Counted from the first letter of the stretch, positions 5,125 through 31,325 are shown. The stretch is DNA of 64,000 nt from Utricularia gibba (GCA_002189035.1 NEEC01000019.1:558001-622000), one strand, 5' to 3'. Notes: generated by a model from the letters alone, not told the origin. Numbers and translations are program-made.

Positions 5125-5316
5125 ACTACAAACTCCAAGGATTTTGATCATCAGTCCGGCTCACGCAGTTCTCTGTTTTGCTGCTCGCCAGGGACTTTGT
5201 TCACACAAAAGAAAGAATACACTTTTTTCCAGTGAAGTTAAACCTTTTTACTGCTGCCATACAAAATGGTTCAACTTCTAAGAAGAAAGATGGGGCAAGT
5301 GAGACAAATGGCCGTT

Positions 5317-5679: not shown

Positions 5680-7552
5680 TTAAAGGCCTCCTTCTTGGAA
5701 GTAGCATTGCCGATGGCTTTTCCCATCTCTTCCACCACCTTCTCCAACTCTACCTCGTGCCAAGTCGGTTTACCTAGGATCACCCTCAGAGAGCTCTCCT
5801 CAACCTGCACAAGTTCAATCTTGGCGTCTTGGGCACCAATAATGGCCTAGAGCTTAGAAACCTTCTCAATAAGGAATTCAACTTCCTTAAGCAAACTCCA
5901 TCCAAGAGTGAAACCCTGGAGGGTGAATGCTAACTAGCTTAGAAACTAAATGTGAACGAAATCGGAGGAATAAAGAGAAACAATACCTCCAAAATCCTGC
6001 TAAGTACCCATTTCGGTTGGAGGCTTGAAAGATTCGCGATGGCCTCTGCTAGGATTGATCGTAGTTCAGCTGGGATCGTGGTTGGTGTGCGTGTTGAACC
6101 CCTCGCCACACCGATTTGAGGCCTCGACGTGCAAGGTGTGGCTGAATTGTAGGGCAACTCTTGAATCGGAGTCTTAGTAGCCTTCGGTGAAGGCAGAATC
6201 TTCTCTTTTCCCTTCCCAATCGAGGAAGGCAGAGTCTGCTCTGAATCCTCGGAGATCCGAATCTCTCTATCCCCCTTAAAGAGATAGTTCACTTTATCGG
6301 ATTGAACCTCTAGAGAATCGGCCTGAAAAGGGGTGTTAGGGAAAAGATCAAAATTAAAAATTCAGTAGTAGTACACGGTAAAGACTAACCTACAGGTAGG
6401 GGATTTTATCTGGGTCTGGTTCCTGCACACTACGCATTTCTGCAGAGAAACATGCCAAATGGAAGTCTACAACCCCCTTCTCCTCGCCATCTTGTCAAAT
6501 GCAGGCCAAAATATGAAGATGGTGAAAAACAGGTAAAGTGTAACCCCCTTCACTTTTCTGTTTTTTGGAAGGTTTTTGGACACAAACCTTAACCCTCTTC
6601 TTTTTCTTTGGGGTTTACGGATGAGTTGAGGGCTTAGGGACAGGGTTAGAAGAGGAAGGGAATATTAGACTAGAGGGGGAGTGGGCTACTGGATTTGGAG
6701 GAATGTCAAAGGGGGATTGAAGAAGATGCTGATACTCTAACTCAGATCTAGGGGGATGATGAAATCGTGCCATTGTCTGCCCTGGCATCGATCGAGAATC
6801 ATGTAGTTTGTCAAGGAATCCCACGAAAGCATTGAGGCTCAGGATTCATATTTAATGATACACTCATCGAGCCTTCAACACACATCTCTACGAGACTTGT
6901 TTGAAGTGTGGAAACGACCGAATGGCTTTACCTTGAAAGGGTAGGAGCCTTAACCGGAAAATTCCACCTAGTTTCCAAAGGAGGAACAACCCAAATGAAG
7001 GAAGACCACTAGTTGTGGTGGGTATCTGGGGCCTTAATGATGAAATTGGGATTGTCCTCAAATCAGCGAAATTGGAAGTGGGCAAACCTATACATCGTTG
7101 GTTTAGCTTTACGAACCGCAATCTTGAAAAGTTGAAAGAAATCCACCAGGGTCATGACTAGATCCATACTTTCTGAGTAGAATAAAAATGTGGTAAAGCA
7201 AAAATCGAATTCAGGGTGAGGCAATAAAGTGGGATGGTGAACATGCGCAAAAATTGTTGCCAAGAGGATGGAGTGGAAATCGGAGGCCGCTTTCCAAATA
7301 GTCAATTGGGACAGGGAGGCTGAAGAGAGGAAGAGGTATTTCCCCTGCCCCATAGGGTATTTGGGAATCCCTAGCCCAAGTAATGATGTACTCATCCGGG
7401 ATCAAGTACTTAGATCCGATGGTAGAGATATTCAATTCACTGGACTTCCTACCCATCTTAATGTTTGGAATCGGAGTAAGGACTAGGTGTTCAAAGATGC
7501 GAAGAAGAAACCCTAATGAAAATGGGGGATTAAGCAGAGTGTTAAGTGTCAT
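5680..7552 (-). pseudogene. Gypsy-type element remnant with Transposase_28-like domain
   Basis: Read on the minus strand from 7552, a conceptual protein is spread over several frames. It begins with features of the plant 'putative gypsy type transposon' (Transposase_28-like) domain: KYLIPDEYIITW, then a GLRFPLHP motif around 7270. Later segments (7121-6888 and 6292-5939) are polar and proline-rich, as in the disordered regions of such proteins. Frames change repeatedly, so it is not functional. The same domain type occurs at 10197 and 13693. Assignment rests on the 'GLR(L/F)P(L/I)HP' signature. No protease or polymerase is seen here. Confidence 0.5.
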
Positions 7553-8770
7553 TTTTTAGTTGTTTATTATGTATTATTATATACTAATATAGTATTAAAT
7601 CGCCTAAATTAGGAGTCATATTGATAAGTATTTGATTTTATTAGAAAATTCCTATTTTTATATTTTGTATATATTTTGTTATCTTTTTTCGTGCACTCAA
7701 AATATAAGGAAGCAGACTTGGAGTGTTGTAGGAGGCTTGCAATAGACCAAACATTGACCTATCGTGCTACATGCGATTTGGGACAATTAAGTCAGAACTC
7801 CTAACTTACGGCATGTCAGAGTCTATAGCAATAATTGAGTGCTTACTTGCATGTATGGGAAAATTGGTGGTGCACGCAAGACAAAAAGAATGATGAAAGG
7901 GGAATAGAAGAAGTTAATGCACGTGGGGATTGAATTAAAAACCAACTTGAAACACTTGCTTTCGAACTTTTGATACTTATTTTTTGCACTTAGAACTTTT
8001 GGTTCTTTCTCTCCTCTAAGGGAGGAAGAACACTTTAGCTTTCCATTTTCATTTTCTGCTTTCATTGCCATTCGTGACTAAATTCTTTTAATTTCTGGAA
8101 ATAGATGAAGTTTACTTTCAAGTCTTGAGCACTAATCTTGGTTTTTTGCTGAATTCATTCTAAATTTTGCATACTTCCACGTGTCTTGTTACAGTCTTTT
8201 TGTAACGTCTCCTAGTCATGGTCCATGAATAGCAGGCTACTTCTCGCGGATTTTGATGAAGAGCAAGGTAAAGAGCACTATTTTCAACCCTATCGGTTCG
8301 AGGAAGTAGCAAATAGTTTGTGACCGAGGTACCGCGACAATGGACAGATAGTGGCCTCTTACCTGCCATTGGTCATTGGCAATAACTCGGCACACAGGTA
8401 GAATACAATTTTAAAGACAATCGATGGCATTCCTCTTGTCTTCTCAATTATTCAAGGGGGAACCACATGAGGCTATTCCCGTGGCCCCTTGTCAATTAAA
8501 GTCTAAGGGAGAGTAGGCTATTCCTTATTCCTATAACCAGCTATTCGGAAGAAATTAGTAAAAACCGAGTAAAGGATAGACAAAAGGAAGAAACAGAGTC
8601 CATTTCCTGGGAATTGCGTCCCGTAGTCAAGGTCCATTACTTGCATTGTAACTTTTATTTCTACACTTCAAAAAACTCTTTTTACAAACATGTGACAATT
8701 TGTAAAAATTTAGTACAAAACACTTTTCGTAAAACTTAACTCTATGAGATCGACACTTGTACTATGCTTT
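7553..8770. other. Non-coding, LTR-like flank interrupted by the hAT element
   Basis: No gene is recognised. The sequence continues after the hAT-like insertion at 15995. The text near 8740 ('gagatcgacacttgtac') resembles the interior of plant gypsy LTRs, so this is probably part of the older retroelement into which the hAT-like element jumped. Confidence 0.35.
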
Positions 8771-8778
8771 ATTGTGTT
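8771..8778. other. 8-bp target-site duplication, left
   Basis: ATTGTGTT immediately precedes the element and is repeated exactly at 15987-15994. Eight base pairs is the hallmark duplication length of hAT transposition. Confidence 0.85.
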
Positions 8779-8940
8779 TAGAGGTGGGTTCGAACCGGAA
8801 CTGCGGTTCAAACCGAAACCGTCGGTTCCGGTTCCGGTTCGGTTCTAAGGGATGGATGTCCGTACGGTTTCGGTTCGGTTCGGCATAATTGGAACCGTGG
8901 AACTGACGGTTCCAAACCGTGAACCGTACGGTTCGGATTT
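8779..8940. repeat. Left subterminal GGTTCGG-rich zone of hAT element
   Basis: GGTTCGG, CCGGTTC and their complements recur in both orientations across about 160 bp. The matching zone at the right end is 15780-15986. Such clusters bind transposase in hAT elements such as Ac. That role here is inferred. Confidence 0.75.
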
Positions 8941-9035
8941 AAAAATAAAAAAAATTAAAAAAATTTAGAAAAAATTAAAAAAATTTAAAAAAATTTAAAA
9001 AAATTTAAAAAAAATTTAAAAAATTTAAAAATATA
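8941..9035. repeat. A/T low-complexity repeat
   Basis: Imperfect tandem array of an aaaaaaattt-like unit of 9-11 bp just inside the left subterminal zone of the hAT-like element. Confidence 0.8.
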
Positions 9036-10002
9036 TATTATTTTTTATACTTTTCTCAGGCACACATACGAAGGAAGTGGGTGCTTGAAAAATCTTCTCA
9101 AACAGTGATGGGGTCTAAATTGATTTTCACCTTTAACAAACACCCTTTCCCAAACACACTCACAACAGATATGGGTGTCTGGAAAATGGTCTCAGGTACC
9201 CTCACGACACACTATCTTAAATTACATACACTTATTTTTCATCTTCTAGATTTCTTTTGTTCATAAATGACAATATACATCCATGGCTTTTGAGATGGAG
9301 TATTCATTGTCTTCTTTGAACCAAGCCCATGTGTATCCCACATTAACGCTACCTATGAAATAAATAATTTGATAAGAGTCCAATACATGGACGCGGATTA
9401 TATAGAAACGATGCCCATGTGTATCCTGTATTAACACTACGTATCAAATAAGTAATTTGGTAGAAATCCTACACATGAGGGAATGTGAGTGTCTGGAAAA
9501 TGGTCTAAGCGATAGACGAATATTCTTTATTTATTGAAATTAATGTATAGTAATTAGGATATATAAAATCATTTCATTTTCAAATTTTGATATTCTAATT
9601 AATGCAGCAACAAATTTTTATATTTATGAAAATTAAGAATACTTTCAAAGATTGCGCAATCCCCAAATTTCGGGTACGGGTGCCTAATTTTGCATTTCTT
9701 GTGCCAGTCGCCCACATTAGCGATTTTGGGTTCCTCAAAATTGGAGTATTAATTACACGATGGGTACGCATCGATTCAAACGAGCGGCACACACCTTGTC
9801 TGAAAACAACGGAAGCTATTATCGACAACTTACGAAAGTAGGGATATCATTGCGTGTAATCATTAGCTTATGATTTGGTGTATTAAACCAAATCCCCACG
9901 CACCCATACACAACGCTACACATCACCACCCCACTCCCCACGTTGTCAATTAAAACAACCATAATCCCCACCCATATGGTAAGAAAATTTTCTTACCTCT
10001 TT

Positions 10003-10021
10003 CCCCCCCCCCCCCCCCCCC
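10003..10021. repeat. Poly-C tract of 19
   Basis: Uninterrupted run of 19 C on the plus strand in AT-rich DNA inside the hAT-like element. Long C/G tracts can form quadruplex or i-motif structures and are prone to length error. Confidence 0.9.
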
Positions 10022-10196
10022 AGCCAAAAGCAACCGAATGCCCCACAGTCCCATCACCTACTTGTAGTGTTTTTTAAATTAAACAAGGTAAGTGATTTAT
10101 TTTCCACCATGGGTTGCTGATCTATGTTCCAAATTGAAATACCTTGTCCAGTTATTGTAGTTTGATTTTTTATACAATTCCTATGGGTGTTTGTAG

Positions 10197-11960
10197 ATGC
10201 ACATTTCTGAAAAATTGAGAACTAGGTTCTTGATACCGGGTGAATATGAGATTTGGGACAAAGAACCGGATAAGTTGATTGAGGATGAAATTCCAAACCA
10301 TGTGAGTCCAATGGGATTTGCCTTAAGCACGGAACATTTTCGTTGTGGTTTGCGCTTACCATTATTGCCCTTTTTAGAAGAAATATTAGAATGTTTAGAG
10401 ATTCTTTTATCTCATTTGACTCCAAGATCTATCTCATATATGTTGGCCTTTATTAGTATTTGTGAGGAGTTATGTCTTGAGGTGGAACTTCGCTATTTTT
10501 TTGCTGTGAATGTATGCTTTAGAACTCTAAACAAGAACCACTACACCTTAAAGGGGAAAAAAGGGTTGGTGCTAGTAAAGAATGTGAGAAGAGGATTTGA
10601 AGAATGGTGGACAAGTTTTGTTTGGATATATCCTCCAATGGAAACCAAATTTCCTCAAATTTATACTAATTCGAGCGAAGTAGGCAATGCGAAAGGTAAA
10701 TCTTGCTTTGTATTGTTAGAAGAAATATGAATAAAAATATTCCATATTTTTATTGAAATATTCTATATTTGTATTGAATGTTTTTATTGAAGATATTATG
10801 ATTGAGCGTTTTTTTTAATCTACTATTATTAAAACTATTGTTATTGAATATTTTTATTCAATACCTTTTTCGAATATTTTTACACTTATCATGTTGAATA
10901 TTCTTATTCAATATTTTTGTTGAATATATTGTTAATAAATTTACTTTTATTGTAGGATTTGATACCTTGTCCAAGAGGGATATACAAAATCTCATTCTCC
11001 TCTTCTCAAGTATGCAAAGGAGTTTTGTTGACATTTTACCACCATTTGTGGATGCACTGAGGACAAAACGCTATTGGTGTGGTGTGTTGAAAAATCCTAG
11101 AGTCTCCCAAAAGAATGAAGACTTGTCTAAGAATGAGATGACACAAGATGGGAATGATGTTGAAGGGGACGAGCTCACACATGGTCTCGATGATGTCGAT
11201 GATAGACTTGAATTTATAACAAAGGAGAATGAAGAGCTTCACTACAAGTTGAATTGGTATGAGAGTCGTTGGGTATATACCGGACCTCCTTTTAGTGCTT
11301 CTAAGCCTCAACGAAAGCTGATTATCTTGGATGTAAATGGTGTGCTAGCAGACATCGTTTACAAGGCTGGAGCGTCAAGGTCACGAATCACTTCAGATAA
11401 AATCATATATGGCCGATCAGGTACGTTAACACAATACTTAATTTTGTGTGTTATGTGCATTCACGATTTGTGAGATATCATAGGTAACTTTTCGTGCAAA
11501 TTATGCAATCTTTCTACGTCCACATGCCCGCGATTTTATTAGGTGGTGTTTAGATAATTTTGATGTAGCTTTATGCTCATCCCGTGGGGGGTACGTGTGC
11601 TGCATCTTTTTTTTTTGTTGGTATTTAGAATTGGTGCAAACACTTGCAATTGATTTATTTTGTAGGGAGCAACTACAAGCAATCACTAAATGGGTCTTTC
11701 CACCTTCATTATTCGACAAACTCATTTTCGTATGGGACCAAACCATGACAACGGACACCGGCTACGTGTTCACAACAATCCTAGCAACACGGTTTACATA
11801 AAGGAGTTGAGTCGTGTATGGGCTGTCAACAATGGATTGAACACAAGATATGACCATCACAATACCTTATTAATTGATGATTCACCTCACAAGTCAATGA
11901 AAAATCCGGTAAGTCATTTATTTTCAATTAGACAGACACTTACAAAATGTGACATTTTGA
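10197..11960 (+). pseudogene. hAT cargo gene 1: Transposase_28-like domain, coiled coil, FCP1/HAD phosphatase domain
   Basis: The first exon starts at ATG 10197 and encodes a Transposase_28-like module (FLIPGEYEIW, then CGLRLPLLPF near residue 60). After an AT-rich intron, an exon runs from 10956 (after tgtag) to 11420 (before gtacg). It holds an acidic coiled-coil stretch and HAD motif I, KLIILDVNGVLADIV. Later exons give LRPHARDFIRWCLDNFDV, KLIFVWDQ and LLIDDSPHKS, matching the FCP1-homology order with the DDSP motif. FCP1-like HAD enzymes are usually serine phosphatases with a DxDx(T/V) motif. Here the second Asp is Asn (DVN), as in plant-specific FCP1-like relatives, so activity is doubtful. 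The frame after the first HAD exon does not join cleanly and a shift is needed near 11760-11790, so it is called a pseudogene. Confidence 0.65.
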
Positions 11961-12070
11961 TTATACTGTTGAATTTATTTTAAAATAAATGAATAAATTA
12001 ATGACAATACTTACGAAACAACTTATTTATACTGTATGACGCTTATTTTGATTTTTAAATTAATTTACAG

Positions 12071-13345
12071 GGACGGCACATACATAAAAATGTTTCTTGT
12101 AGGGGCCGCCAAAATATTGAAATACTATTAAATTTGATTACGGATGTGAATTGTTTATTAAACGATTTCCAATTACAATTGGTATCCATATTTTAAAAAA
12201 GATTTTTTCGTGCATAATTATTTTAAATAATTTTATGCTAAAACACAGAATTATAAGTGTGTTGTTGACATAAAATCACATTTTAATTTAAAACATTTTT
12301 AGCAAAAATATGATACGAATGTAAGTTATTGTCTAACTTAACCTCAGATGTTGTGAGGTTTAGTAGAGGAAAACATTTGAGATACAATATACATATACTT
12401 GTGTAAAAAACTTCATTTTTATAATCATACCTTAAATATTCAGCACATTACAATATTTATGATGATAAGCGTCATCATCAAGGACCATTTATATTAAAAA
12501 AAACATAAATTTCCACTTCATGGTTTAGGGTTTTCAGGGTTTTAGGGTTTAGGGTAAATCAAATATCTGAAATATTCCTGCCTTTTTAATATGTTGCAAA
12601 TATGAAATTTTGCACGGCACATACGTAACATTGCGTTTTGTAGGGGCGGCAAAAACAATTTATGGAAACACTCTCAAATGTACTTACGAATGTGAATTGT
12701 TTATTAAATAATTTACAATTCAAATTGACGTCCATTAGATACAAAGTATTTTTTGTATCGAATTTCTATTTATAATCTGAAATTACAAATATATTATTCA
12801 AAGGCAATATAATGACTTTAAAGTTTATAAATAATCATCCACATTTACATTAGACACAAATATATCTTGTTCTCTCATTTAAATGTCAAATATTTTGATG
12901 CTTTATAAAAAAAATATTGAACATATATTTGCAAAGAAACGTGGTTTTTATTATTTTTAACGTTACAATATTGGTGATGATAAACTTCATTACTATGAAC
13001 AAAAACTACTAAAATTTTTAATGTGTAGTTTAATTAAGGGTTTAGGACAATTAAATGTGTAATAAATTCTTGTCATTTTTAAAAAAAATGTAAGGATAGT
13101 TGGATTTTGAGAAGGTACATTCAAACACACGTAATGCGTATGTGTCGCTGAAATATATCTATAACATTTTTTGTTTATAATTTTTAAAATACTGAAAATT
13201 CAAAATTTGGGACGGCACATCAAACAATGAGTATTTTGAAAGTGCCGCAATTTTTTTAATTATTTTAAATAATTGATTTAGACTATATATGGATGTAAAT
13301 TATTCTATGCAATATGATTTTCTGAAAAAGTTGGCATCCATTATA
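12071..13345. repeat. Three degenerate ~540-600 bp repeats in hAT interior
   Basis: A 130-140 bp core starts at about 12071, 12612 and 13209. Each begins '(g)acggcacat', contains 'ttgtaggggc(c/g)gc' or a decayed form, then 'ggatgtgaattgtttatta', and ends near 'ttggtatccat'. Sequence between cores also shows related lines (for example 'ttacaatatt.atgatgataa' near 12447 and 12964), so the units are about 541 and 597 bp. They separate the two cargo genes. The function is unknown. Confidence 0.6.
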
Positions 13346-13692
13346 TAAGTGTACAACCCTACCGAGTTTACATCACCTTTTGCTGCATACAAAGGCTCTT
13401 CTTATTAGTGTCGTTGCGCTCCTGAAAACCTAGAATTCATCGGCTTAAAATCGGGTAATCTTGTTGTTGCAACTTACATTATTTTTGTGAAATGTATTCT
13501 ATGCATTTTTTGCTGTAGTATGCGTTGTATATTAAGTTGGGTTTAGTTATTACAAATTTTCTTTTCGTATAATTATGTATTTAGTTGGGTTTAATTGCAT
13601 TTTTCATCGTTAATATCATGTTTGTTTTGCTGTTTTCCATTTCCTTATTTTTAGAATTTCATTCTTATTATGTATCCTTTATTGATTAGGGA

Positions 13693-14866
13693 ATGGATAG
13701 ATTTCGTATTAAATACGTCATCCCAACCGATTGGTTGACAATTCCTGCTCCGCAAAACACACCTCTTGACGCCAATCCCCCTCATGAATGTCCCAATGCT
13801 TGGCTTGTGTCTCGTAAAACATTTGATGCTGGTCTTAGGCTACCTATTCATCCCTTTGCTCTTGATGTGCTCACCTATTTGAGATTACCTATTGGGTTTT
13901 TAGCACCATCTTCCTATAGTATTATCTTAACCTTCTTACACTTGTGCGAAGCAGAATATGTAGAACTTTCCTTGTCAAATTTTTTTGCATTATCTCTTCC
14001 AAAAAAAACTCCTACTGGAATATGGTATTTTCAAGGATTACCAAATACTAGATTTCATCAAAGTCTACTCAAATTCGAAGTAAGTCTTTTTAATTTACAT
14101 TATTTTTCCAATATGTTATTTTACTTATTTATTTAACATTATGATAGCACTTCGAAACATTCATGGTGTCATTGAGAGGCGGTCTGCACCAACATCAAGG
14201 CGAAATCGTCATCAGCTTGTTGTTTATGAACAACCCATTCCGCTAAACATCAATAGCAATGAACAACAGGTAAATAAAGTAGGAATATTATTTAAATTTT
14301 TAATTTTTTCTTCAAATAAATAAGGTTTGCAATATAAAAAATTTTTTGTGTAGGAGAATTCTGAACAACAAAATGGAGATGAGGAGAATGAAGTGTCTCT
14401 TCATGAGAAGGCTGAAGTGTATATTAATGAGGAGCTCTCGGTTGCACGCCAACATGACAAAGAACTCATTTTAAACCAATATAAACACATTCAACGGATG
14501 GAAAATGAGGTAATAAAAATGAAACTTATTTTGCTAATACATGTGATAGTTGTTTTTTTATGTTTTCTAATTTAGTTTTTTTTCTCCTTTAGATAGATTC
14601 AGAAGAACAAAAACAAAATGGACGATTCGGTAGCACAGCAATCTATATACAAGGTTGAATTGAAGATGAAAGGCGATGAATTGATTGCTGGACAACAAAA
14701 ATCTATCAACTTTCAATTGGAAATAATGAGGCTGAATGAAAAAATACAGGTGTTAGAGGAAGAATTTCAACTTCACAGATTGCAAGCTCAATTGAATGAA
14801 AACGATGTTGTGTTTTTTTTTTCAAAGAGACATACCTTCTACAAGTGCGGGCACAAGCAAAGATAA
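13693..14866 (+). CDS. hAT cargo gene 2: Transposase_28-like domain plus coiled coil
   Basis: From ATG 13693 the first exon (to about 14079) encodes a domain like that of cargo gene 1: FRIKYVIPTDW, then AGLRLPIHPF near residue 50 and a hydrophobic helix. Later exons (about 14144-14271, 14354-14508 and 14593 onward) encode charged helical sequence such as EKIQVLEEEFQLHRLQAQLN, probably a coiled coil. Introns are short and AT-rich. No HAD domain follows, unlike cargo gene 1. The last frame ends in a T-run region and the exact exon joins are uncertain. Function is unknown. It may be an element-encoded accessory protein or a captured retroelement domain. Confidence 0.45.
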
Positions 14867-15375
14867 AGAAAGAGGTAGAGGCAGATCCAAAAGAAAGGGA
14901 AAAAAATGAAAAGGGTCCGTAACAATGTTGTGTTTTTTTTTTCAAAAGATTTGACTTATTTTGTAATATTATATTTCAATCGTGACAATCTAATTATTTC
15001 GCAAATGTCGCTTAATTTTCTAATAACTAATTGACATTTTTTACAAAAATTATAAAATTAAACATAAAAGCAAACATACAAATTACAAAAGAGATAATAA
15101 CAATTTTTTTTTCAGTAAAATTGAATTATTTCGTATTATTATGGCTAGCTCCTACCAAAGTACTTATTTAATAGGTGCCGTAACAAGAAAATTATTTCAT
15201 ATCACTTTTTTATACGTCCTACGAAATCCTCTAATGCATAGATATCGCTTCAAATTTTTAATAACTGAATCATGTTTTTCTAAAATATTATAAAATTGAA
15301 CATAAAAAACAATCATACGAATTAGAAAATGGACGATAACAATATTTATTAATTTTTAGTGAAATTAACTTATTT

Positions 15376-15450
15376 TGTATTATATTATATATTGAACTTA
15401 TACCAAATTATTTATTATATATTGAACTTATACCAAATTTATTTATTTCA
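15376..15450. repeat. Short direct duplication
   Basis: The stretch 'tatattgaacttatacc' and its surroundings occur twice in tandem, and a third decayed copy follows. AT-rich, inside the hAT-like element. Confidence 0.6.
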
Positions 15451-15779
15451 TATTATTATATTAAACTCTCACCAAATTACTTATTTTACAGATGATGTTA
15501 ATATAATATTGTTATGTTTCATTTTTCTGTGAAATTGTAAGACTAAATTCTTTAAATGTATTCTCGTTTTAATAATAAAAAAATATTTTCTCAGAAATAT
15601 TAAAGATTTAAACTAAAAATAATTTATTAGAAATATAGTTAAAAAAATTCTTTTTTGTACATATATATTAATTTTATTTAAAATAAAAATTAATTCTTTA
15701 AATATTTAATATTTATTAAAAATTTCACTTCCAGACACCCATAAGGATTCATATGAGTGCCTTGAAAGCACCTACAAAC

Positions 15780-15986
15780 AGTAACCGCGGTTCTGGTTAC
15801 GGTTCAATTCGTAAATCTCGGTTTCGGTTTTGAATCGAAATCGTTCGTACGGTTCCGGTTTCAGTTTGTTTCAAGCCTTCCGGATACGGTTCCAAACCGA
15901 AACCAGAACCGTTACCCACGGCGAACCGCGGTTTTGGAATCGACGGTTCGCTGGAACCGTTCGGTTCCGAACCGAACCCAGCTCTA
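15780..15986. repeat. Right subterminal GGTTCGG-rich zone of hAT element
   Basis: Dense GGTTCGG/CCGAACC motifs in both orientations, ending in CGAACCCAGCTCTA, which is the inverted counterpart of the left end. The exact ATTGTGTT duplication follows at 15987-15994. Confidence 0.75.
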
Positions 15987-15994
15987 ATTGTGTT

Positions 15995-17049
15995 TTACGT
16001 GTTTTCTAAATTAAAATTTATTGAGAAAACGATACGCAACATAGAGATAGACCGAAAACCCGAAAAAGCTTCAAAATCTCTAAAAGCCTCACTCAAAAAT
16101 GTGAAGAAAAGAGAAATACCTGGGAAGCTTGTGGACAGCACCGAGTTTCGTGACGGTGGAAGTGTGTCAGAGTAGGCGGGAGCGGAGAACACAAAGGATG
16201 TAAGAGAGCAGTGAAAGGAGGTGAAGTGTACAATGAAGGGAGGAGAGGCAATTTATAGAGGGGATTCTCAGAACATGAAGGGACATGACGATTGGGTTAC
16301 AAAAAATGGACAGGAAAACGTGGCATGTCTTGGATGCAACATGTGGCGAAGGAACTTACTAAATCGGAGGGAACTACAAACAGGAAATCGATATATGATT
16401 AGACATTGAGTTGGTGATTTTGATCTGCCAATCTATCGCGAGTACTCATCTCGGCAAATCAAAGAGACTGAATGGTGGGCCTTAAATTGGCATGTGCCAC
16501 ATGGAGGCGAGCCCGGGAGGTACTTATAAATCTATAGTTGGTGGATGACAAAATCAACTTCCCTTGAACGAAGTCAGTTGGAAAAGGTCTCAAAAGCATT
16601 CTAACAACCTACTATAGGTTACTATAGGTTGACAAACCAATAAGTGTTAGAACTAGGAAGCAAAGGCCATTTTGATAGTCTGAAAAGTAGCCAAATTATA
16701 GGAATGTCAAAGCAATCGACAGGTATTTGTTAGCAGGACCATAGTATGGCTACCAAGCATAGAAAGCAATTGACAACTGCAGAATTTGATTGGATCGGCT
16801 CTTCCTATAAATATAACAAAATCTGAAAAAGAAAAGGTTGAACTCCCTACATTTTGAGCTCGTATTCCTCTCCTTTTTTCCGTTAATGAAACCCCCTCTT
16901 CTGACGAGCTTTGACAGCTCCGTGGTTTTTTCATCTTATAGTGGTTTCCACTTTAAAACTCTTGTGTCTTTTTATTTTTTTTTTGTTCTCAAAACCAAGC
17001 CAAAATCGGAATATAATCTATCGGAGTGTGTCAATCCACATTCATGACT
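15995..17049. other. Non-coding flank, no gene recognised
   Basis: Continuation of the sequence interrupted by the hAT-like element. Short frames at 15990-16175 and 16221-16409 have no recognised domain. At 16800-16900 a TATA-like stretch (tataaatataac) is followed by pyrimidine-rich sequence, which would fit a retroelement LTR promoter. Confidence 0.35.
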
Positions 17050-18081
17050 CGAAAATCGGTCAAGTCCAACAGGACCAATTTTTGACCTCAACAGATGGTG
17101 AGCATACTTATGTTCTATTAATATATGTGGATGACTTACAACTTGTTCGAAATTTAATTGAAGAAATTCAAGTGTTAAAGATTGCACCTCATAATTGGTA
17201 CACTATTAAAGACTTGGGAGATATCAAGTATTATCTCAAGTTTCATATTTATAGAAATAAAAAAGAAATATTTATCACTCAAACTGTATATGTAACTCTA
17301 CCATTAAGGATTTAAACTTATCAGAGTATGATGGACAATTTGATCCATTTCCAAGGGGATTCAAATTTTCAAAGAATCTAGGAAAAGAAATTCAATCGCC
17401 ACTAAAGTATTGAAGCCTAGTGCGGTGCCTCCTATACTTAGGTTTCTCTTGGCCTGACCTATCTTATTATGTACAAACACTTAGTCAATAAATGAAATGA
17501 CCTAATGAACAACATTAGCATGCAGCAATTTAGGTTGCAAAATACTAGAGTGAGATGCTCAACAATGGATTATTCTATCCATTAGAGAAAAAAAAAAGAC
17601 ACTTAGTGCATTATGTGACTTCGATTGGGCAGCATGCCCATTAACCGAAGATCCCTAATAGGATATGATATATTCTTTAGATTTACTCTAGTATCCTAGA
17701 AAACAGAGAAGCAAGCAATTGTATCTAGATCGGTGGGTGAAGCTGAATATGGAAGCATGGCAACCACAACATGTGAGCTGAAGTGGATAACTTACGTGTT
17801 GTAGGAAATCGAGTATCTCAATGATGGAGCAATTCCATTGTATTGCGATACCAAGGTTGAGATTCAAATAATGGAGAACCTTATTTTCCACGAGCAAACA
17901 AAGCATATAGAAGTCGATTGTCATGGTAAGAGAGTGCTTTGGGATACTTAAATCTGTACATGACCAATAAAATCGCAAGTCGTTGATCTCTTCACAAAGC
18001 AGTTGGGAATGATGGAGTATGAACAATTTCTGCAGAAGTTAGGATTCATGGATTACAAGGCTATTGGGCTTGAGGAGGGGG
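17050..18081 (+). pseudogene. Copia pol 3' remnant (reverse transcriptase end, RNase H)
   Basis: The plus-strand frame to 17315 shows the Ty1/Copia reverse transcriptase signature YVLLIYVDDLQL, with the catalytic YVDD, then YTIKDLGDIKYYL. Downstream the RNase H region is readable only through many stops and frame changes (17450-18060), including sequence for the conserved end around the 'KHIEVDCH'-type motif. A purine-rich tract (ggaggggg) at 18075 precedes TGTTAATTC at 18082, which fits a polypurine tract and LTR start. The 5' two thirds of the element is missing. Confidence 0.75.
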
Positions 18082-18380
18082 TGTTAATTCACTCAATAGG
18101 CTCAATGAGATGGACAAGTGAAAAAACTGGCAAATAGCAGAAAAACGAAAAAGGAGAAAAACTCATAACATAAACCATGGAATAAAGCAGCAACAACCTT
18201 GTAATAAATATTGGAAAAGTTCTCATCCACATGTATAAATAGACATCAATGCAATATAATGATAATGGAATAAAGCAGCAACAACATTGTAATAAATATT
18301 GGAAAAGTTCTCATCCACATGTATAAATAGACATCAATGCAATACAATGATAATGGTAGATAAATTCTAGTTCTCTAACA
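18082..18380 (+). repeat. Putative 3' LTR of the 17050 Copia remnant
   Basis: Starts TGTTAATTCACTC directly after the polypurine tract. It contains an internal 88-bp tandem duplication and a TATA-like 'tataaataga'. The right border was not fixed. Confidence 0.5.
18179..18354. repeat. 88-bp tandem duplication inside LTR
   Basis: Two almost identical 88-bp units starting 'ggaataaagcagcaacaac' at 18179 and 18267. They differ at two to three bases. Each carries the TATA-like 'gtataaatagac', so the LTR promoter core is doubled. Confidence 0.9.
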
Positions 18381-19229
18381 CTATAGGTATGAATCCAATA
18401 GAACATCGAAGGATACCAATTGATCCATCGAGTTGACGTCAAAAACCACTTTCATAAACCTTCGTTTCACTTTTACACTATCACTTCCAATTTGACCACC
18501 ACTTTTTGAAATCAAAAAGTAACAAAATCTCAAGTAAACACAAAAGATAGAGCTCACTAGAAGAAAGATAACTAAAATGCACACCTTCATGTCTTTTGAT
18601 AGACCAATCCACAGGAGACACGATAAGCAACCCACAGGGGCTGGTCAAATTCTAGAAACCCGTGAAAGCAGGAGGCTTCCCTAGTTTCAAAATCAACCCT
18701 CCGATTGTAAATCATTTAGGTTTCATTTAGTATGAGTGATAGATATTTAAATGCATCTTCTCATGTATTCCACCGTGAGAAGTGGGTAACTTAATAGATT
18801 GGAAGTGAAGTGGTGCCAAGTCCATTGAAGATGTGGCTTTGGGAGTTATTCACATCAGTTTTCAATGTGAGAGATACTGATAGTTCGTGCACCCTCAAAG
18901 ATGGGGATAAATTCTGTCTATGCAGGGAAAGGAGGCAAACAACTCTGGAGAGCAGGAGGTGATCAAAATCAGATCATAGCTTAAGAGTGCATGTGTGGCT
19001 TTATTGTAGAGTCGGCAAGTGTGTGTGTTTGTTTCTATCCTTATTGTGTTGTTCTATAGTGAACATCCAAAAGGTTTTACTAGGTGTAAACATGATATTT
19101 TATTTGGTTAGTTATGATGTTCGTTCATGCATACACACAATTAACTCAACACTACATATGTTATTTTCCTCAAGTTCATGGCTAGACACCACATGTTTAC
19201 TGATGAACGTTGGAATGGGTTGCTAAATG
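18381..19229. other. No gene recognised
   Basis: Short frames on both strands (18381-18635 minus, 18987-19226 plus) without recognised domains. The motif 'tgatatttaaatgcatc' at 18740 recurs at 20379, on the other side of the LTR-like block at 19230-20340. That block may therefore be an insertion in older repeated sequence. Confidence 0.3.
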
Positions 19230-20340
19230 TTGCGATCTAGCACGTTCAACGCATCAAAAGAAATTTATAAACTTACCTATTTTACTAGACAAATCACATG
19301 AATTAATGTAGTGTGGCAAGCAAGGATCGAATCCACAGGAAATAGTTGCAATTTCCTAAAATTTATCACATTTACTAAAAACAAGAGGGTTTTTCTGGAG
19401 GTTTAGCTCTAATGTGCATAAGACATAAAATAGCAGGAGTTAAAATAAACGAGTTGTAGGGACGAAAATGGACTGAAATTAACGTGAATGTGTATAAAAA
19501 ATAAAATAAAAGTGATTTGGCTGGGTTTTATACTAGGGTTTGGCTCTTTTGCCACTCAAGAGAGCTCATAGGCTTAAACCAAGCTTTAAAACACTTAGAA
19601 AATAGAGCAAGGGTTTGCAAGAACAGTAAAAAGCATGCTAAACTTAGAACCAAACACGAAAAGATTAAACAAAAACATGTTCATAACCTAAAATAACGTT
19701 TACAAAGAGTTTCCCATTCACAACAAGGTACTGAAATGCAGTAGAAAGCATAAAAATGCAGAAAGTAACAGCAGCTACTTTGTCAACAGAAACGAAGTGC
19801 AAAAAATAGAAAATAAAGTGTTCAGTAGTTGCTCTCGATCATACATCTGCTGGAAATCAAATTTCTGGGCGAAAAGATGGTGTAGAAGTGTAGATTTGGA
19901 GGTCACCGGAGACGTTCGCTGGAGAAACATCGTTCTCCTCGCTCCCGCTTCGCTATTGTCCTCTCTCCCCTTTACTGTTCGCTTCTCTTGTCTCTCTCTT
20001 CCTTTTCTTTTTTCAATTCAAAAGTAAGGGTAGCTTCATCTTTTTCTCAAGCTTTTAGAAGAAAGATCTCTACTCCAAATCTTATCTTTTCAGACGAGCG
20101 GCTGCTTTCGGCGAAAAGTGACTTTTGCACAGCTTTTTTATCCCCTTTGACTTGTCAACGTGAAAAATATTAGAGTTTTTGGCTCAATTGGTGTCAATTG
20201 AGCCCGTTAACACATTTCACCAAACTAAATACGCAAAAGAAGACAATTTAGCATACTAAACAACATTTAGGCCTACAAAACATACTTAAAAACGTACATA
20301 AAAACATAATAAATACGGTATTATTATATACAAATGTGTC
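19230..20340. repeat. LTR-like fragment
   Basis: The line 'caaggatcgaatccacagg' near 19321 is a motif often seen in plant LTR and LARD/TRIM repeats. The block is non-coding and has an inverted 'ctcaattg...caattgag' near 20180-20202. No target duplication was fixed, so its class is uncertain. Confidence 0.35.
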
Positions 20341-20429
20341 TCTTGTTTCTAACAAGAAGCTGGCATCATGTTCTGATATTTAAATGCATCGTCCAATGTA
20401 TTTGATGTGTCATACCAATAAAAGATGAT

Positions 20430-21538
20430 ATCTTTATGGAATCAAGTGCATGAGCAACAGAGCTGTCAAAAATTGTACTTGCTTTGGGAAGTGAGAGGCG
20501 AAAGAAAGACTAAAGGAGAGAGGATCGCAAGAGTTAGCAGCACATACACGAGGGGGTTTCTCCCCCAACTCGAACACGACGAATACTGGAAGGAGAAGGA
20601 AAAGAAGGGTGATTTTTTAAAGAAGAACATTCAACGTGATGAACAAAGAACAAGACTTAGTCCAGCGCTACTGTTCCGGCCTGTGAACAGTAGCAGACAG
20701 AAATCAGTACTATAACTGCTTTATTTACGTCTCTTGACATTTTTAGTTTTTGCAACTAACTCTTTTACAATGTTTTGGACAATTTCACTGCTTTATGTTA
20801 ATGTTAACATATTTTACTTTCTAAGTATGAGTGGCTAGAATCATAAGGGTGCCTTAAGGTAAAACATGGTGGTGTGGACCTAGAATTCATAATATAATTC
20901 ATCATTGTTTCTTAACTCTTATTTCTATCATTCTATGGGTAGACCTAAGGAGGAAAACAAGTAGTTTCACAACCGAGATGTTTGAATTAGAAATAGACCA
21001 ACAAATCAAGGCAAGAGCAATAGGTGTTAGTGCAGAGTAGAACCAATAGAGCCGAGTAGATCTAGTTCTATACACTTTACATGTAGGTAGACCTAATTGC
21101 AATGTTGGTGATGATATTAAGGATTAGTTTAGCCGAAAATATGAGAAATGACCTAGGTAAACTTAGGTTATTTGAAGTTGTGAGTGCAAGAACATAATAG
21201 ATTAAATTAGACATTTTAGTACCACACCACCTACAAACCCTTAAGGCATCTTAATATTACTCTGAGTTAGAACCAGTATTTGTTATCTTCCGCGTTGAGA
21301 CCTGATCTTGTTTACTGAATTTGTTTACTACTGTTAGTTTGAGCCTAGATTAAGACCTACTGTTGTTTTGAATTCTACATCTACTGAAACACTTAGCAAG
21401 CACAAACTCTTTGTGATCGACCCCGAAATCCACTATACAAGTTTTACAAATTTGTATTTTGTATAGATTAGGGGTTATAAATTTATTTGATACGAAATTT
21501 TTATTTTTGCAGTAACATTAGGAAATTTCCGTTTATCA
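20430..21538 (-). repeat. Truncated LTR of the TGATAAA...TATCA family (inverted)
   Basis: Reverse complement of the solo LTR at 47273-48640. Shared landmarks are the 'gatcgaccccg' line (21415 region), repeated 'tagacctaa' lines, the 'ggtttctcccccaa' segment and the terminal 'gtttatca' at 21531-21538. It is shorter than the intact copy at its far end, near 20430. Confidence 0.75.
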
Positions 21539-22109
21539 ATCTACTATAAATAACTTTTTTATATTGCTTTATTTTTAAGATGAAAAGTAGAATTGTTTTT
21601 TTTCTTTCACATTAGTGGTGCTTCCGTTTCTTTGGATTTGTTTTGTAATTTGAAGCTATGCTTCAAATTATGTAGTATAGAATAAGTTTTAAGATTATGT
21701 AAATAAAATTAATTTGATAATATAAAACTCTTTTGTGAGATAACATAAAATTATATTTTAAAATTTAATAAATAAAATAAATATTGTAAAATTTAATATA
21801 TTAAATTATTATATAATTTAATGTTATGAGATAAATATATTTTTAGAACAGATAAAAATTGAATGGTGTAATTTTTTTAATTAATCTTTTATTTAATCCT
21901 TGAAGCAAAGATTCAAAAAATTCCATAATTTTTTAAGTTAATTACAGAATTTGAATGTTTAATTTTATTATAAAATGATTAAAGATTAAAATCTTCAAAA
22001 ACTAAATAGAATCACATCATAAAATTAATAACACACAACAAATCCTTCTTTTTTGCACTTTCACCTCCAATTAGTATCACCTCCAATTGTATTTTCTTTG
22101 GTTTCTTTG
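21539..22109. other. AT-rich non-coding sequence
   Basis: No gene recognised. It lies between an LTR fragment and a Copia gag remnant and may be the 5' part of that Copia element. Confidence 0.35.
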
Positions 22110-22286
22110 GTGTGGGAAGCTATTGAAGCAAACGATCCTCCAACATCGAGGATGCCTCATCAAACCAATTAAAACGACATGAAGACTCTCTTTCTAAACA
22201 CTATTATGCTTTAAATGCACTCTTTTCCTTTGTTGATAAGTCAGTATTCTATCATATTATGGCCCATAAATCTCCCCAGCTAAGTG
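22110..22286 (+). pseudogene. Copia gag remnant, left part (split by MULE)
   Basis: Readable as the N-terminal part of a Copia gag: 'VWEAIEANDPP' in one frame, then 'HYYALNALFSFVDKSVFY' in another. The matching right part resumes at 29284, after the Mutator-like element. Frames are broken. Confidence 0.6.
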
Positions 22287-22296
22287 GAAAAAATTG
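22287..22296. other. Target-site duplication, left (MULE)
   Basis: GAAAAAATTG, repeated exactly at 29274-29283. Nine to ten bases fits Mutator-type insertion. Confidence 0.75.
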
Positions 22297-23169
22297 GGGG
22301 AAATTAGTATTTTACACGTGTCAGAGTTTTTTATTTGCAATTTACCGGAACTTTTTTTCTAATTTGTAAATTACCTTACTTTTTTATTTGTATTTGCGAA
22401 ATGCCTTAGATTTTAGGATTAAATTTGGTAAATACATGTACTGGAGGAAAGAGGTTGGCAAAATACCATAACTTTTTGTTTTATTGGTATTTTACATGGG
22501 TTATAATTTTTCATTTGTAATTTATTGGAACTTTTTGTTTTAATTTGTAAATTACTTATTTTTTTTATTTTTCTTTGTAAAATGACTTAGATCTAGAAAT
22601 TCATTTATTGAACCGCATGATATTGTCTTGACTATTTAAGAACTCCATAATATTCAAAAATAATTATTGTTATTGGTGAATAAAAATATATAACATATTT
22701 ATAAATATCCACAATCGTTATTATCATTTAAAATTTATAATTTTCATATAATAAATTAAATTTTAATGAACATAACCATGAGTGCTTATAAAGAAAAAAT
22801 GATTTATTATAAAACTAAAATATTTCGAATTAAAATATTATAAATAAAATATATTATCAATTTTGATTAAAAACGTGATTTCAATTGTTTTTCATAATCA
22901 ATATTAAATATGAGTAAACAATTTTTTTACATAAATTTTTAGTAAAATATAGATAATTTGATGTAATAATAATTTATAATCATAAATAAATTAATATAAT
23001 GAACAGAAAATTAATTCAAGTATGAAAAATGATTAAAACATAAACTATCAATGATGTAATACGAATAATAGTATTCAAAAGATCAAAATGGATATATAGT
23101 TTTTAAAAATAACAGCAATCAATACATATAACACTCAATAATACGTTTATAAATTTGCCAATGTGGATC

Positions 23170-24351
23170 AGTCTCATCAATTAGCTTCTGACCGAACCGG
23201 AATTAGCTGACGTAACTTCCCACATCATTTGCATCTAGAACACCCTGAAGGAACAAATGAAAGACATTGTAGGGGGCAAGCAAATTGTCCATACCTTCAG
23301 TGCATTTCCATGAGATAGGAAATATTGCATTGTTAACCTAGAAAAATTGCATTAGATAGATTTATAGAAAAAATTTAAGAATAAAGAAATTTAATAAACA
23401 ATTAAAAGTCACTAACCGGGTTTAAAATCGATTTATAAGGAGAGTCATCCACTAACAATGTGTTGGTAGAGTTGTATTTGCCTTCAAATACTTCATTCTC
23501 CCAAATATATCGTAGAGGTTTCAACTTCATAGTATCAAATGCGTTATCGATCCGCCTCTCGGAAGTGATTATGCAATTGCTTTGATCCCATAAAAACACC
23601 AAATTCTTCTTGATATTATCTCCAAGAATGTACTCTACCAATGGCTTGAGTGTATCCCTATCACCAAAAATATTATTAGTAATTGAACACAAAATAAATC
23701 AATTTAATTTCATAATACAATATTTAAAAAATGACTTACATTCCCCTCGATGACCATATTACTACATCAAAATTTGCCATACACCACTCCAAAAAGGATC
23801 TAGAATATGGTCTTAAATACACTGAAAACAAAAATGGTGAATTTTATATGTAATTTAAAAAAATCAAACAAGTAAATATACTAACCTCCTCGTCCCTTAA
23901 TCATAATTGGAGGCGTAGGGTCTCATCTATTTCTACGATATACGACATCGGCTAGTACCCCATTAATATCTAAAACGAGTAACTTCCGGCACGTCATGGA
24001 AAAATAGTTAGGTTGCACAATTAAGCTTCCAGCTCTTTTTTCGTAATTACGAAGAGTGCTAGTCAATCTCTCTATCTCTGATTGTGCTTCTAATAACTCC
24101 AATTGTAGTTTTTGTACCTATAAATAAAATAGTAAATATGAGAAGAAAATATAAAATTTATATAAATCATTTAAAAATAAGTAACATACCATTTCGAGTA
24201 AGGTGTCAACATGTGTAGAAGATGAAAAATCATAAGGCTCGGGAATGTCTCGTGGCACATTTTCGACATTCGGAATTTCCGGAGATAGTTGTCGTCGAGA
24301 CGCACTCCTTTTAGTGCCATACCAAATACGTCTAGTATTTCGAGTATCCAT
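23170..24351 (-). pseudogene. MULE cargo: coiled-coil plus FCP1/HAD-type phosphatase
   Basis: Exon 1 starts at ATG 24351 and ends before gtatg near 24192. Exon 2 (about 24117-23887) encodes a coiled coil (QLELLEAQSEIERLTSTLRN) and HAD motif I, KLLVLDINGVLADVV. Exon 3 (about 23822-23742) gives LRPYSRSFLEWCMANFDVV and IWSSRG. Exon 4 (about 23660-23418) gives NLVFLWDQSNC and LLVDDSPYKS. Further sequence to 23170 (an NNAIFPISW-like stretch, then GVLDANDV and FGQKL) completes the FCP1-homology fold. One in-frame TGA in exon 2 (near 23930, after VVYRRNR) breaks it. The DxD motif is DIN, so the second catalytic Asp is replaced. Strand and position suggest it is a passenger behind the transposase gene. 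Confidence 0.7.
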
Positions 24352-24708
24352 AAATGGTGACTCAACTTCTTACCATTTCAATTGTTTACCATGAACCAAG
24401 ATAATCAAAGAAACTCTTGACGCTTCACCTAATTCATTGACACCTTCATAAAAATAAATGTTTATTATCTCTGAAAAAAGAGAAGTTCATTCTATTAATT
24501 TTTATTCACTATCTTAATTTGTATATAAATATTCTTGGTTTATATTTAGATTTTTACGTTTACAATTGTTATAAAAAAGATTTTCAAAATGTATTAGTTG
24601 TATTAACTATATAATAAAACATAGAGATATAAATCCATAATACTTATATGAACAAGAATAGGAATACGACAACATAATTCATGACTCCACAATTTATTTC
24701 TGTTTTCC

Positions 24709-27700
24709 TCACTTAAATGTATGTTTTACCTTTTCAAAGAGCGAAGTACGGCGTGATCGCGTCCCTTGAACCGTAGTCTCATCAGAGAATGGCACTTGGG
24801 TTGGATAGGAAAGGGACAATGATAGTCGACCAGCCGAAGTAGTTGCCCTTGGCTCTGTAGGTTGTCCTCCCTCGAATGATGAATGTCTGTAGGTTGGATT
24901 CGCAGGCGAGAGTACATTGGTTGGAAGGATATCGTCTTGCCTGACATATGTGTCTTCTTCATTAATTTCTGTAACTCTTGACTTTCGCCTTCCTCTTTGT
25001 TGGAAATCTACCGGTCCTCTAAATCTGGTTGTTTGGTCACGACCCAACTTTGTTCTTCTTCTTGATGAGTCAACAACCAGCTCGAATGCTGATTCTGCCC
25101 ACTGACTCTCATCACGTATAGGGCGAACTTCACATTTGTATGTATTCACTAAGTTTGATGTCAGGTAATAATCACTTGTCTTCAATATAGGATTTAAACG
25201 GAATTGATGACAACCCTGTGGAATAAAATATTAATTAGATTGAGGATTCTTAAATACTAGTACTAACTGATTTTATAGAGCTTACCATTTGCGCATGAGA
25301 ACAAGGATATCTGTCTATCTGCCATATACCGCAGTCACAAGTTTGATCTCGAACATTGACTCTATATATTCGCATGGAATGATGCCCCCAAGATTGTACC
25401 TCACATATTTGACTGTTCACATCATATGATATGCATTTAAGCATTGTTAACTGATTCAATGCTTCTTGATACTTCATGTGGATTTTGTATCCCAAGGGAA
25501 TCCCATTTTTCTGCATTGATAGTGCCTCTGATCTATAACGTACGAAATATTCACGTGTCTTTTCGAAGGTCACCTACAAAGTTATGGTAACATCAAAATT
25601 TATTCAATAATGAAATTAAATTGCAACTCGTATAACCTCTGCAAGTGCAGTTGGAGGTAAATGTCTTGCTGATCATAAAACGCTATTCATACACTCAACA
25701 TGATTTGTAGTCATGAGTGTGTGCCTGTATTTTAAGAAAACATGTTAGCTAAAGTAAGTAAAACTAACAAAAAAAAACGTTTTACCGATGTCCACCATCA
25801 TAAAACAATGTCCACTCCTCTTTGGATATTTTTTCTAAATAGTGATAGGCATCAATCGAATGTCTTGCTATCTCACTCATGGCCATCCTGAAATCAGTTT
25901 CGGTTCTAGCATAAGAAGCTCTTTTGATCCATTGTCCCAAAGCTTTTGATTTCGAATGAACATGTGACATACAATTTTTTCTGATATGGAAGTTGCACCA
26001 TCGATGTATGCCATAGGGAGGGCTAAAGCGCTTGTAACTATCATAAGCACCAATAATCCCAGAAGCACGATCAGAGATAATACATACATCTTTCCTTTGA
26101 CGAATAACATGATTGGCAAGATTATAGAAGAAAAATTCCCAATCCTCAGTTGATTCTCCATATGCGAATGCATAGGTGACTGGGAAGACACAATTGCTAG
26201 CATCAACAGCAACACAAATCAGCAACTTGTAGTTGTATCGTCCATATAGGTGAGTTGCATCAACACAAAGCACGGGTCGACAGTATTGAAATCCTTCAAT
26301 AGCAAACCTGAAAGCCCAAAATACATTTCGCAACACCTTCTTCCCATCTAGATCACCACCATAACGCCATATCACAATTGTGCCTGGGTTTTGAGTGCGA
26401 AGCTCTCTTATATCGTGGTAGCTCAGTAGTGGAAGTTTCCCACATTCCATAATGAATCTCAGAGGCTCTGGTTATACAAGCCCATGCCTGCCAATATGAT
26501 ATCTCATAATACCATTGCTGCTTTACATAAGCTTGCACAAACTTAACATCTATCTTTCCATCCAGAAGTGAAACCAAACGTGGTGCGATGAACTTGATTG
26601 TAAGATTAACATTGGATGTTGCAAGATCAGCTGTGACATCGCACGTATGCGGTTCTACAAGCTTTGAGATCTTCCAAGTGTTAGATCGTGTCTGAAATCT
26701 TGCCCAGAGATAAAATGGACAATTAGAAGTTTTTTCTTTCGTCTGACGACAAATGCAAGCATATGTCTTTTTATCACTTGCCACCACACGGGTCTCTCGA
26801 TGTGCTATAGAAGTATTGTAGAGAGCAACTGCATCAATAAGGGTCTGTTTATCTGGAAAATGCATCCCTTGTCGTAATTGATTTGATCCCTCAGCATATG
26901 AATCATTGTGAACAGATATATCAATATCATCAGCATATAAGAAGTCCATTTGATCCGGTGATTCAATTTGAGTTTCAAAACAAGTTTCTGATGGATGATC
27001 AAAAATCCCTGGAATTTCATTATCCTCAAAGTCAGATTCATTGATATCTGAGGGATCATTATCAACATACATCGCCCCCTCTAAATCAGACTCTTCAATA
27101 GGGACTGTTGAGGTCTCATACGTTTGATTTACGTGGCCTCTATTATCATATATCTCATCTGAAACATATTCATGATCACCTGAAATAAAAGTTTAAATAC
27201 GAAATACTGAATAAAAAATAGTAATGTTAAAAAAATAGAAAGAGATTAGAGAATTTAATCAATACAAGAATGTGAAGATGGAATTCTAACCATAACGAAA
27301 CGAAGGCTCCCAAAAAGGATCAAATGGTGCATCCAAGTCTTGTGTTGGATAACTGCTATTGTTGCACCCCTCACTAGTTTGTTCGTTTAGGTTGAGCCGC
27401 CAATCTGCAATTATAAAAAAGTTCATGCTATTTTATATCACAACTTATGATAGAAAACATCAAAATTTTTCTAAATTTCACTTGGAGCATGACTACTAGA
27501 AATCTCATCCCATCGTGGGTTTGTTTTGACGAATAATTCAATTCCATACTCTGAATTGTTAGGTGATAAAATATAGCGTAATACGTCGGTACTTGAAATC
27601 TCCATAAAATTCGCATTTCCAGATTCCGCATCATAGAATTTTGCATTTAAAGTAAATTGAAAATGCAAGGGTGACATTTGGAGAGTCTCACCTATAATTT

Positions 27701-27833
27701 CAATAAGTTTATCAAGAGTAGATGTGCATTTAGCCTTGATGATTTTCACAGGATCTCTATCGTATGCAACGTATCCAGATGCATTTTGAATTAGATTTCC
27801 TCCGTAGAACACTTTGACAAGAACCTTACTCAT
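24709..27833 (-). pseudogene. MuDR-type transposase (PB1/Ub-like N-term, MULE core, SWIM zinc finger)
   Basis: Cuts and joins Mutator-type DNA. The N-terminal exon from ATG 27833 encodes a basic beta-rich, PB1/ubiquitin-like module (VLVKVFYGGNLIQ) often found at the start of plant MULE transposases. An exon at 27072-26430 carries the MuDR DNA-binding region (FPDKQTLIDAVALYN, TCDVTADLA). The next frame (26450-25782) is the MULE catalytic core: CVDATHLYG, WEFFFYNL and IISDRASGI supply acidic residues. The segment 25573-25250 has the SWIM CxCxnCxH finger (CDCGIWQIDRYPCSHA). A low-complexity tail ends at 24709. The join near 26409-26418 needs a one-base frame change inside what should be one exon, so the gene is probably inactive; otherwise it is well preserved. 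Confidence 0.85.
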
Positions 27834-28387
27834 TATCCTTTAATGAAAAAAGAAATTTCAGAAGAGAAACTAATGAAAAAAATTGCTTAATAGTGAAATA
27901 CAATACCTATTACATGAGATTGTCAAATTCTACTTTAAGATAGCATCTCATGTGGTCGAGAAATTGAGAAAAGAATTGATACGATTCATACTAAGGAAGC
28001 CTTTTAATATAGAAGATAAGAACAAATATTTTATATTGTGTGGCTAAGATTTATAAAGGATAATATGAAGATAAATAAGTGATGGAAAATAGTGGGAACG
28101 GATATCATGAAAACCAAATGGATAATATAAATTTCAATTTGTAATTTAAACCTTTTTAAACTTTTTTCTTATATAGTATTTAATTTTTTTCTTGTCTCAT
28201 ATTTTAAAAATATTACTTTAAAATTTATTATTATAAATTTTAAAATTAAAAACTTTATATAAAAAAATCACATTAGTAAAATGAAATAATTGGATGCTGG
28301 CACGTATGCAGCACCCATAGCTGGGCACTGCTTACCACGTTTGCAGCACCCAGAGCTAGCATATTGGAAGATCAATCGGCCAAACTA

Positions 28388-28525
<138 letters not shown>

Positions 28526-31089: not shown

Positions 31090-31325
31090 CACAGAGATCA
31101 CACATCCATTAACCGTTGACCGGACAAAAAGCGGTTACCGATGACCGGTTTTCTTCCGCATGAGCTGGCTTCAAAGCACGTAACATCACCATCTTCAAAT
31201 CTACTCTGAAACAACACAATTTTAATTTGAAACCCGGTAGAACCGGTTGAAAGTCACTGTCCGGTTCGTTAACCGGAACCGGTCCACGGTTTCTGTTCGA
31301 ACCGGAGAGGGGACCCAACGATAAC
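31090..31325. promoter_or_regulatory. GC-richer promoter patch of TBL copy B
   Basis: Counterpart of 2715-2965, with CCGGTT/AACCGG motifs about 620-850 bp upstream of the TBL start. It has diverged somewhat, but the 'gttcgaaccggagaggggac' line is kept. Confidence 0.35.

Follow-up and report, generated by a model that had tools for sequence, protein, structure and literature searches.

In a 64,000-nucleotide stretch of the Utricularia gibba genome (GCA_002189035.1 NEEC01000019.1:558001-622000, hereafter the window), a hAT transposon (element A) and a Mutator-like element (MULE; element B) carry the same type of accessory gene, whose full form joins a TRP28 domain (Transposase_28, PF04195), a linker, a presumed coiled coil and an FCP1-like HAD domain. 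An earlier note on this DNA had recognized a common gene type in these two transposon classes, and our searches, which covered one genome, that of U. gibba (~100 Mb, 516 contigs), place it in a third superfamily as well, PIF/Harbinger. We tentatively propose, at somewhat below an even chance for the account taken whole, that both window genes represent decayed copies of a single TRP28-linker-coiled coil-HAD accessory gene that arose once, passed between transposon superfamilies and acts for its carriers as an anti-silencing factor or helper.

The note had placed both genes inside genuine elements, had seen one HAD motif order in them (LDVNGVLAD, LRP, WDQ, DDSP in A; LDINGVLAD, LRP, WDQ, DDSP in B) and had judged both copies damaged, and each of these points holds. 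Element A is a hAT of 7,208 bp on the plus strand (8779-15986), its ends being set by the short terminal inverted repeats (TIRs) and 8-bp target-site duplication (TSD) of hAT elements, and its 3' terminal base is the same in several other copies. Because the element spans this whole interval, the 10956-11960 previously given for the hAT covers only the HAD part of gene A, although a hAT does stand at the site. Likewise, the coiled coil (presumed) and the HAD had been noticed, but the N-terminal TRP28 of the same gene was overlooked, as were the PIF/Harbinger carriers and a further TRP28 gene within element A. The features of element A are as follows:

8771-8778 (left) and 15987-15994 (right): TSD ATTGTGTT, a perfect 8 bp
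Element ends: TIRs, TAGAGGTGGGTTCGAACCGGAAC at the 5' end and TAGAGCTGGGTTCGGTTCGGAAC (reverse complement) at the 3' end, short, matching and of the form TAGAG(G/C)TGGGTTCG
10197-10730, plus strand: TRP28 exon of gene A (Transposase_28, PF04195; Pfam 1.6e-9), in the same order in other copies
10956-11420, plus strand: part of gene A that ends at intron 1, with the linker (VDILPPFVDALRTKRYWCG), a presumed short coiled coil and HAD motif I (LDVNGVLAD)
11494-11592, plus strand: HAD exon 2 of gene A (AIFLRPHARDFIRWCLDNFDVALCSSRG)
11667-11910, plus strand: HAD exon 3 of gene A (WDQ ... DDSP), with a frameshift near 11760 and the match split at C142:569768
13690-14866, plus strand: second TRP28 gene, which has a presumed coiled coil of its own and lacks a HAD (PF04195 2.5e-10)

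The two PF04195 matches score 38.3 and 40.9 bits against a curated cut-off of 26.2, and several other hAT copies likewise have a second TRP28 match, offset by an equal distance (+2.3 to +2.5 kb); the two TRP28 proteins of element A might pair. Gene A is broken by the frameshift in its third HAD exon and by the loss, relative to other copies, of ~300 bp just after that exon, a stretch that holds the last exon. No recognisable transposase was found in the window copy of element A, which appears to be a non-autonomous hAT copy; in its relatives, PF05699 lies 1.4-3.6 kb upstream and in the same orientation.

On the minus strand, element B (22297-29273; 6,977 bp) is a MULE with degenerate TIRs, a TSD within the 8-11 bp of this superfamily and a MULE transposase:

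22287-22296 (left) and 29274-29283 (right): TSD GAAAAAATTG, an exact 10 bp
25250-27192, minus strand: MULE transposase gene in several open reading frames (ORFs) (PF10551 1.2e-14; MULE domain 25782-26471)
24118-24369, minus strand: linker exon of gene B (PFMDTRNTRRIWYGTKRSA), with no TRP28 exon upstream in the window copy
23923-24117, minus strand: coiled-coil-like helix and HAD motif I of gene B (LDINGVLADVVY)
23744-23830, minus strand: HAD exon 2 of gene B (FSVYLRPYSRSFLEWCMANFDVVIWSSRG; L051)
23417-23656, minus strand: HAD exon 3 of gene B (WDQ ... DDSP; L051)

The TRP28 exon that gene B has lost is kept by a sister MULE (L084, at 4811-5068), where it lies between the transposase and the HAD. 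Just beyond the right end of element B there is also a linker-exon fragment of another TRP28-coiled coil-HAD gene (PPFVDIPNI...CGTKSSTTR; 29980-30096, plus strand), which matches 24253-24369, reverse-complemented, at ~70% identity.

In related loci, the full gene runs from a TRP28 exon through a linker whose signature is S(L/F)xDILPPFV...WCG, a short coiled-coil-like helix (a coiled coil presumed, as judged by eye) and three HAD exons to a C-terminal exon. One such gene (L065, 493 aa), whose protein was joined by eye and searched in Pfam with its in-frame stops omitted, has TRP28 (2e-7) and NIF (8.4e-6) matches, each above the curated cut-off, the NIF/FCP1 domain scoring 26.0 bits against 21.8; a phmmer search of the HAD against the PDB gave no match at E 0.1.

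The phylogeny of the HAD domains bears directly on the origin of this gene. In a tree of 45 such domains, all 40 element-borne members form one clade (97/99) beside the host FCP1-like genes L014 and L020, and within this clade the transposon lineages fall into separate subclades, namely hAT A (100/99), Harbinger C1 (100/100), MULE B (99/99) and MULE C2 (100/99). Both HAD introns stand at homologous places in the two host genes and in the element genes; TRP28 was not seen in L014 or L020, and no single-copy host TRP28-HAD gene was found in the 516 contigs (~100 Mb). One element clade with a subclade per lineage thus favours, as far as sequences can tell, a single origin followed by passage between superfamilies over independent captures. 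Independent capture of one host family, which the note had suggested, sits badly with the single clade, the common TRP28 fusion and the homologous introns; we reject two such captures on the strength of the tree and the fusion.

From a genome-wide perspective, HAD exon matches number 195 with the A query, many of them at 80-92% identity, which makes the likeness of these genes no matter of chance, and 157 with the B query. We sorted 135 HAD places into A-like (41), B-like and the rest, here called group C (80), and compared their neighbourhoods with random placement on the same contigs, the co-location counts being lower bounds (the best 150 candidates scored per family search) and the element context being drawn from four 10-kb stretches and coordinate tables. 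The hAT dimer domain (PF05699) lies within 6 kb of at least 17 of the 41 A-like HADs (1.5 expected), nearly always upstream and on the same strand. For group C, a Harbinger transposase stands no more than 5 kb upstream on the same strand in at least 29 of the 80 places (0.65 expected; maximum 4 in 2000 simulations), and a Myb/SANT gene stands downstream on the opposite strand in at least 23 of them (0.58 expected). TRP28 itself precedes the HAD on the same strand in at least 16/41 A-like and at least 39/80 group C places (~0.3 expected each). The carriers are therefore hAT elements, at least two MULE lineages and PIF/Harbinger elements: the two genes of the last, DDE_Tnp_4 (PF13359, in L082) and Myb/SANT-like (PF12776, in L081), were seen directly for C1, clade C2 lies in MULEs with a divergent transposase (L083, read directly), and B-type genes lie in MULEs with a same-strand transposase (the window and L084, the latter read directly). 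A search for the CACTA transposase (PF02992) returned no match and is therefore of no use as a control.

Between clades, omega is 0.13-0.17 under a Goldman-Yang (GY) codon model (twice the log-likelihood difference, 2 delta lnL, 180-268), values that are rough because deep synonymous sites are near saturation. Within families, the third HAD exon of the hAT copies gives an omega of 0.69 (2 delta lnL 11.3), or 0.43 when the copies are stop-free (2 delta lnL 11.3), and the values for C1 (0.73), C2 (0.54) and B (0.62) are each without significance alone. When codon positions 1+2 are set against position 3 and intron sites, the ratio is 0.71 (0.61-0.82) in hAT, 0.70 (0.61-0.81) in C1, a marginal 0.70 (0.52-0.97) in C2 and 1.09 in B. 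Nei-Gojobori pN/pS values of 0.34-0.41 were discounted, since strong transition bias pulls such estimates down; the whole-family codon models gave 0.54-0.73. The picture suggested by these estimates is one of constrained source lineages that shed decaying copies, the recent ones being partly decayed. A role in transposon biology, also raised in the note, thus gains indirect support from the deep constraint, from the weaker yet significant within-family constraint in hAT and Harbinger elements and from the stereotyped placement in three superfamilies. As the copies share one ancestor and were conserved during carriage, the gene is probably of use to the elements, for example against silencing, rather than a random passenger.

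The main historical rival holds that several transposons repeatedly captured a host-resident TRP28-coiled coil-HAD gene; selection would then have acted on that host gene, which would explain the between-clade conservation, with the element copies as passengers. Repeated sampling of one donor would also yield one clade, the MULE B copies look neutral, and the donor may lie outside the ~100 Mb and 516 contigs searched. We nevertheless regard this history as unlikely, given that no single-copy host TRP28-HAD gene was found, that dozens of copies stand at stereotyped distances from three kinds of transposase, and that the omega of 0.43 in stop-free hAT copies, with the position constraint in Harbinger copies, argues for selection after capture. 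Far less credible still is neutral Pack-type capture, in which each transposon would have taken chance fragments of a host FCP1-like gene. If MULEs are known to take gene fragments (PMC13317346) and the window copies are indeed broken, the single clade and the deep constraint contradict this idea, and so do the common TRP28 fusion, the whole-gene architecture retained across several superfamilies and the within-family constraint; Pack-TYPE elements would instead hold fragments of different host genes under no selection. Nesting of element copies within unrelated host clades with no purifying selection, which the note had tied to random captures, is likewise not what the HAD tree and the dN/dS estimates in this genome gave.

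Under the single origin and inter-superfamily passage that we favour, a single transfer of intron-containing DNA from the host FCP1-like family with DxNGLL would have supplied the HAD part, which would have been joined to TRP28 before the joined gene moved between transposon superfamilies. TRP28 may bind element DNA, the coiled coil may dimerise the protein, and the DxN HAD could serve to bind phosphoproteins or retain weak activity, in either case opposing silencing or promoting expression and transposition of the element. Retention of the gene by elements with unrelated transposases and ends points to a target common to them, with host silencing or transcriptional access as the most plausible candidates, and we infer, by analogy with known systems, that its likeliest role would be targeted anti-silencing or that of a transposition helper.

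With regard to the HAD itself, the acid/base Asp of motif I is Asn in 50/52 copies, which have DxN in place of the DxDx(T/V) with two catalytic Asp of NIF/FCP1, the nucleophile Asp being kept in 45/52; the host relatives L014 and L020 also read DxN there (DLNGLL, DVNGLL). A DxN in a HAD is expected to cripple catalysis, and we therefore refrain from calling the protein a phosphatase, a label that appears doubtful. In HAD clade E (L071, L075), which has Harbinger transposase matches upstream, the nucleophile is lost (YVNGV) and DDSP is kept. That the elements use a true phosphatase, be it on the C-terminal domain of RNA polymerase II, as the note had imagined, or on a silencing factor, would agree with the FCP1-like fold recognized by Pfam NIF, with the frequent nucleophile and with the DDSP of most copies, but the near-universal Asn, found in both host relatives too, and the further loss in clade E make it quite improbable. 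A stronger contender, and the main functional rival, is a direct part in transposition, through end binding or complex assembly, instead of anti-silencing: the linkage to transposase genes of three kinds, the predicted DNA binding of TRP28 (PMC11963269) and the two TRP28 genes of hAT elements would all suit it. We see it as possible if somewhat unlikely, because neither the transposases nor the ends of hAT, MULE and Harbinger elements are related and TRP28 also occurs in Retand, a long terminal repeat (LTR) element without such ends, so that a common target such as silencing fits better. A more sweeping version of our proposal would make the TRP28-coiled coil-HAD protein a general plant mobile-element counter-defence, of single origin, passed among hAT, MULE and Harbinger elements, with TRP28 also in Retand, and pairing DNA binding by one domain with a phospho-binding pseudophosphatase that disarms a common silencing step; we entertain it with reserve, as conceivable yet on the unlikely side.

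Several points weigh against our account of one mobile accessory gene that serves its carriers. Besides the near-saturation of deep synonymous sites, the MULE B copies display no present constraint (ratio 1.09), the Harbinger C1 omega of 0.73 does not differ significantly from 1, and many copies contain stops. The tree does not settle the order or direction of transfers between superfamilies, the anti-silencing role is drawn by analogy with fungal TET/JBP, VANC/KIU and PMD-phosphatase systems, and the evidence is the sequence of one genome.

Elsewhere in the window, a trichome-birefringence-like gene is present in a tandem-like duplicate (2490-5308 and 30842-33660, 91% identical) with elements A and B between its copies. 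An unrelated repeat occurs in copies 76-84% identical at 20452-21538, 47273-48372 and 58089-58606 and also adjoins some hAT copies. Outside both elements, a TRP28-like ORF (YLIPDEYII...LESGLRFPLHPLG; 5939-7555, minus strand) is perhaps of Retand-type retrotransposon origin.

Our literature searches, which covered open-access papers, brought up neither a HAD/FCP1 gene described in hAT, MULE or Harbinger elements nor a single gene that a plant's hAT, MULE and Harbinger elements have in common. They also gave no account of what the plant FCP1-like DxN family does, a family for which the present gene suggests a use. Host members of that family (L014, L020), sister to the element clade, resemble the element genes in HAD motifs, DxN and intron positions, and differ from them by long lysine-rich or acidic N-terminal parts in which TRP28 was not seen. 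A union of a transposon-related plant domain with a phosphatase-type domain is also known from MAIN/MAIL1 (PMD), which work with PP7L, and from MAIL3, a PMD-PP7 fusion, all with effects on silencing of transposable elements (PMC7156037); PMD proteins, unlike the present gene, are host genes, and PMD and PP7 are other folds. The VANDAL MULEs, with VANC, a proven anti-silencing factor, and KIU/Kaonashi (ULP1), offer plant DNA-transposon accessory genes that include a captured host enzyme domain (reviewed in PMC13317346), but the present gene, which occurs in three superfamilies, showed no similarity to VANC or ULP1.

A close parallel in distribution is offered by fungal TET/JBP dioxygenases, a single family that has been passed among several unrelated DNA transposon superfamilies, hAT and Harbinger among them, and for which escape from silencing has been suggested (PMC12730594). 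As there, one accessory gene family spans unrelated superfamilies, which would suggest that they face one and the same obstacle, host silencing being the likeliest; those enzymes are fungal and act on 5-methylcytosine directly, whereas the plant gene described here is a DxN HAD fused to TRP28. As for TRP28, Retand LTR retrotransposons carry it (PF04195) in antisense ORFs of the pol-3'LTR region, predicted to be DNA-binding, and the study describing them found no similarity to other known transposable elements and called the origin of TRP28 unexplained (PMC11963269). The same Pfam domain thus appears in both kinds of mobile element, but where the Retand ORFs are antisense and have no reported HAD, TRP28 is here fused to one inside DNA transposons, which gives it a home there and a partner through which its function becomes testable.

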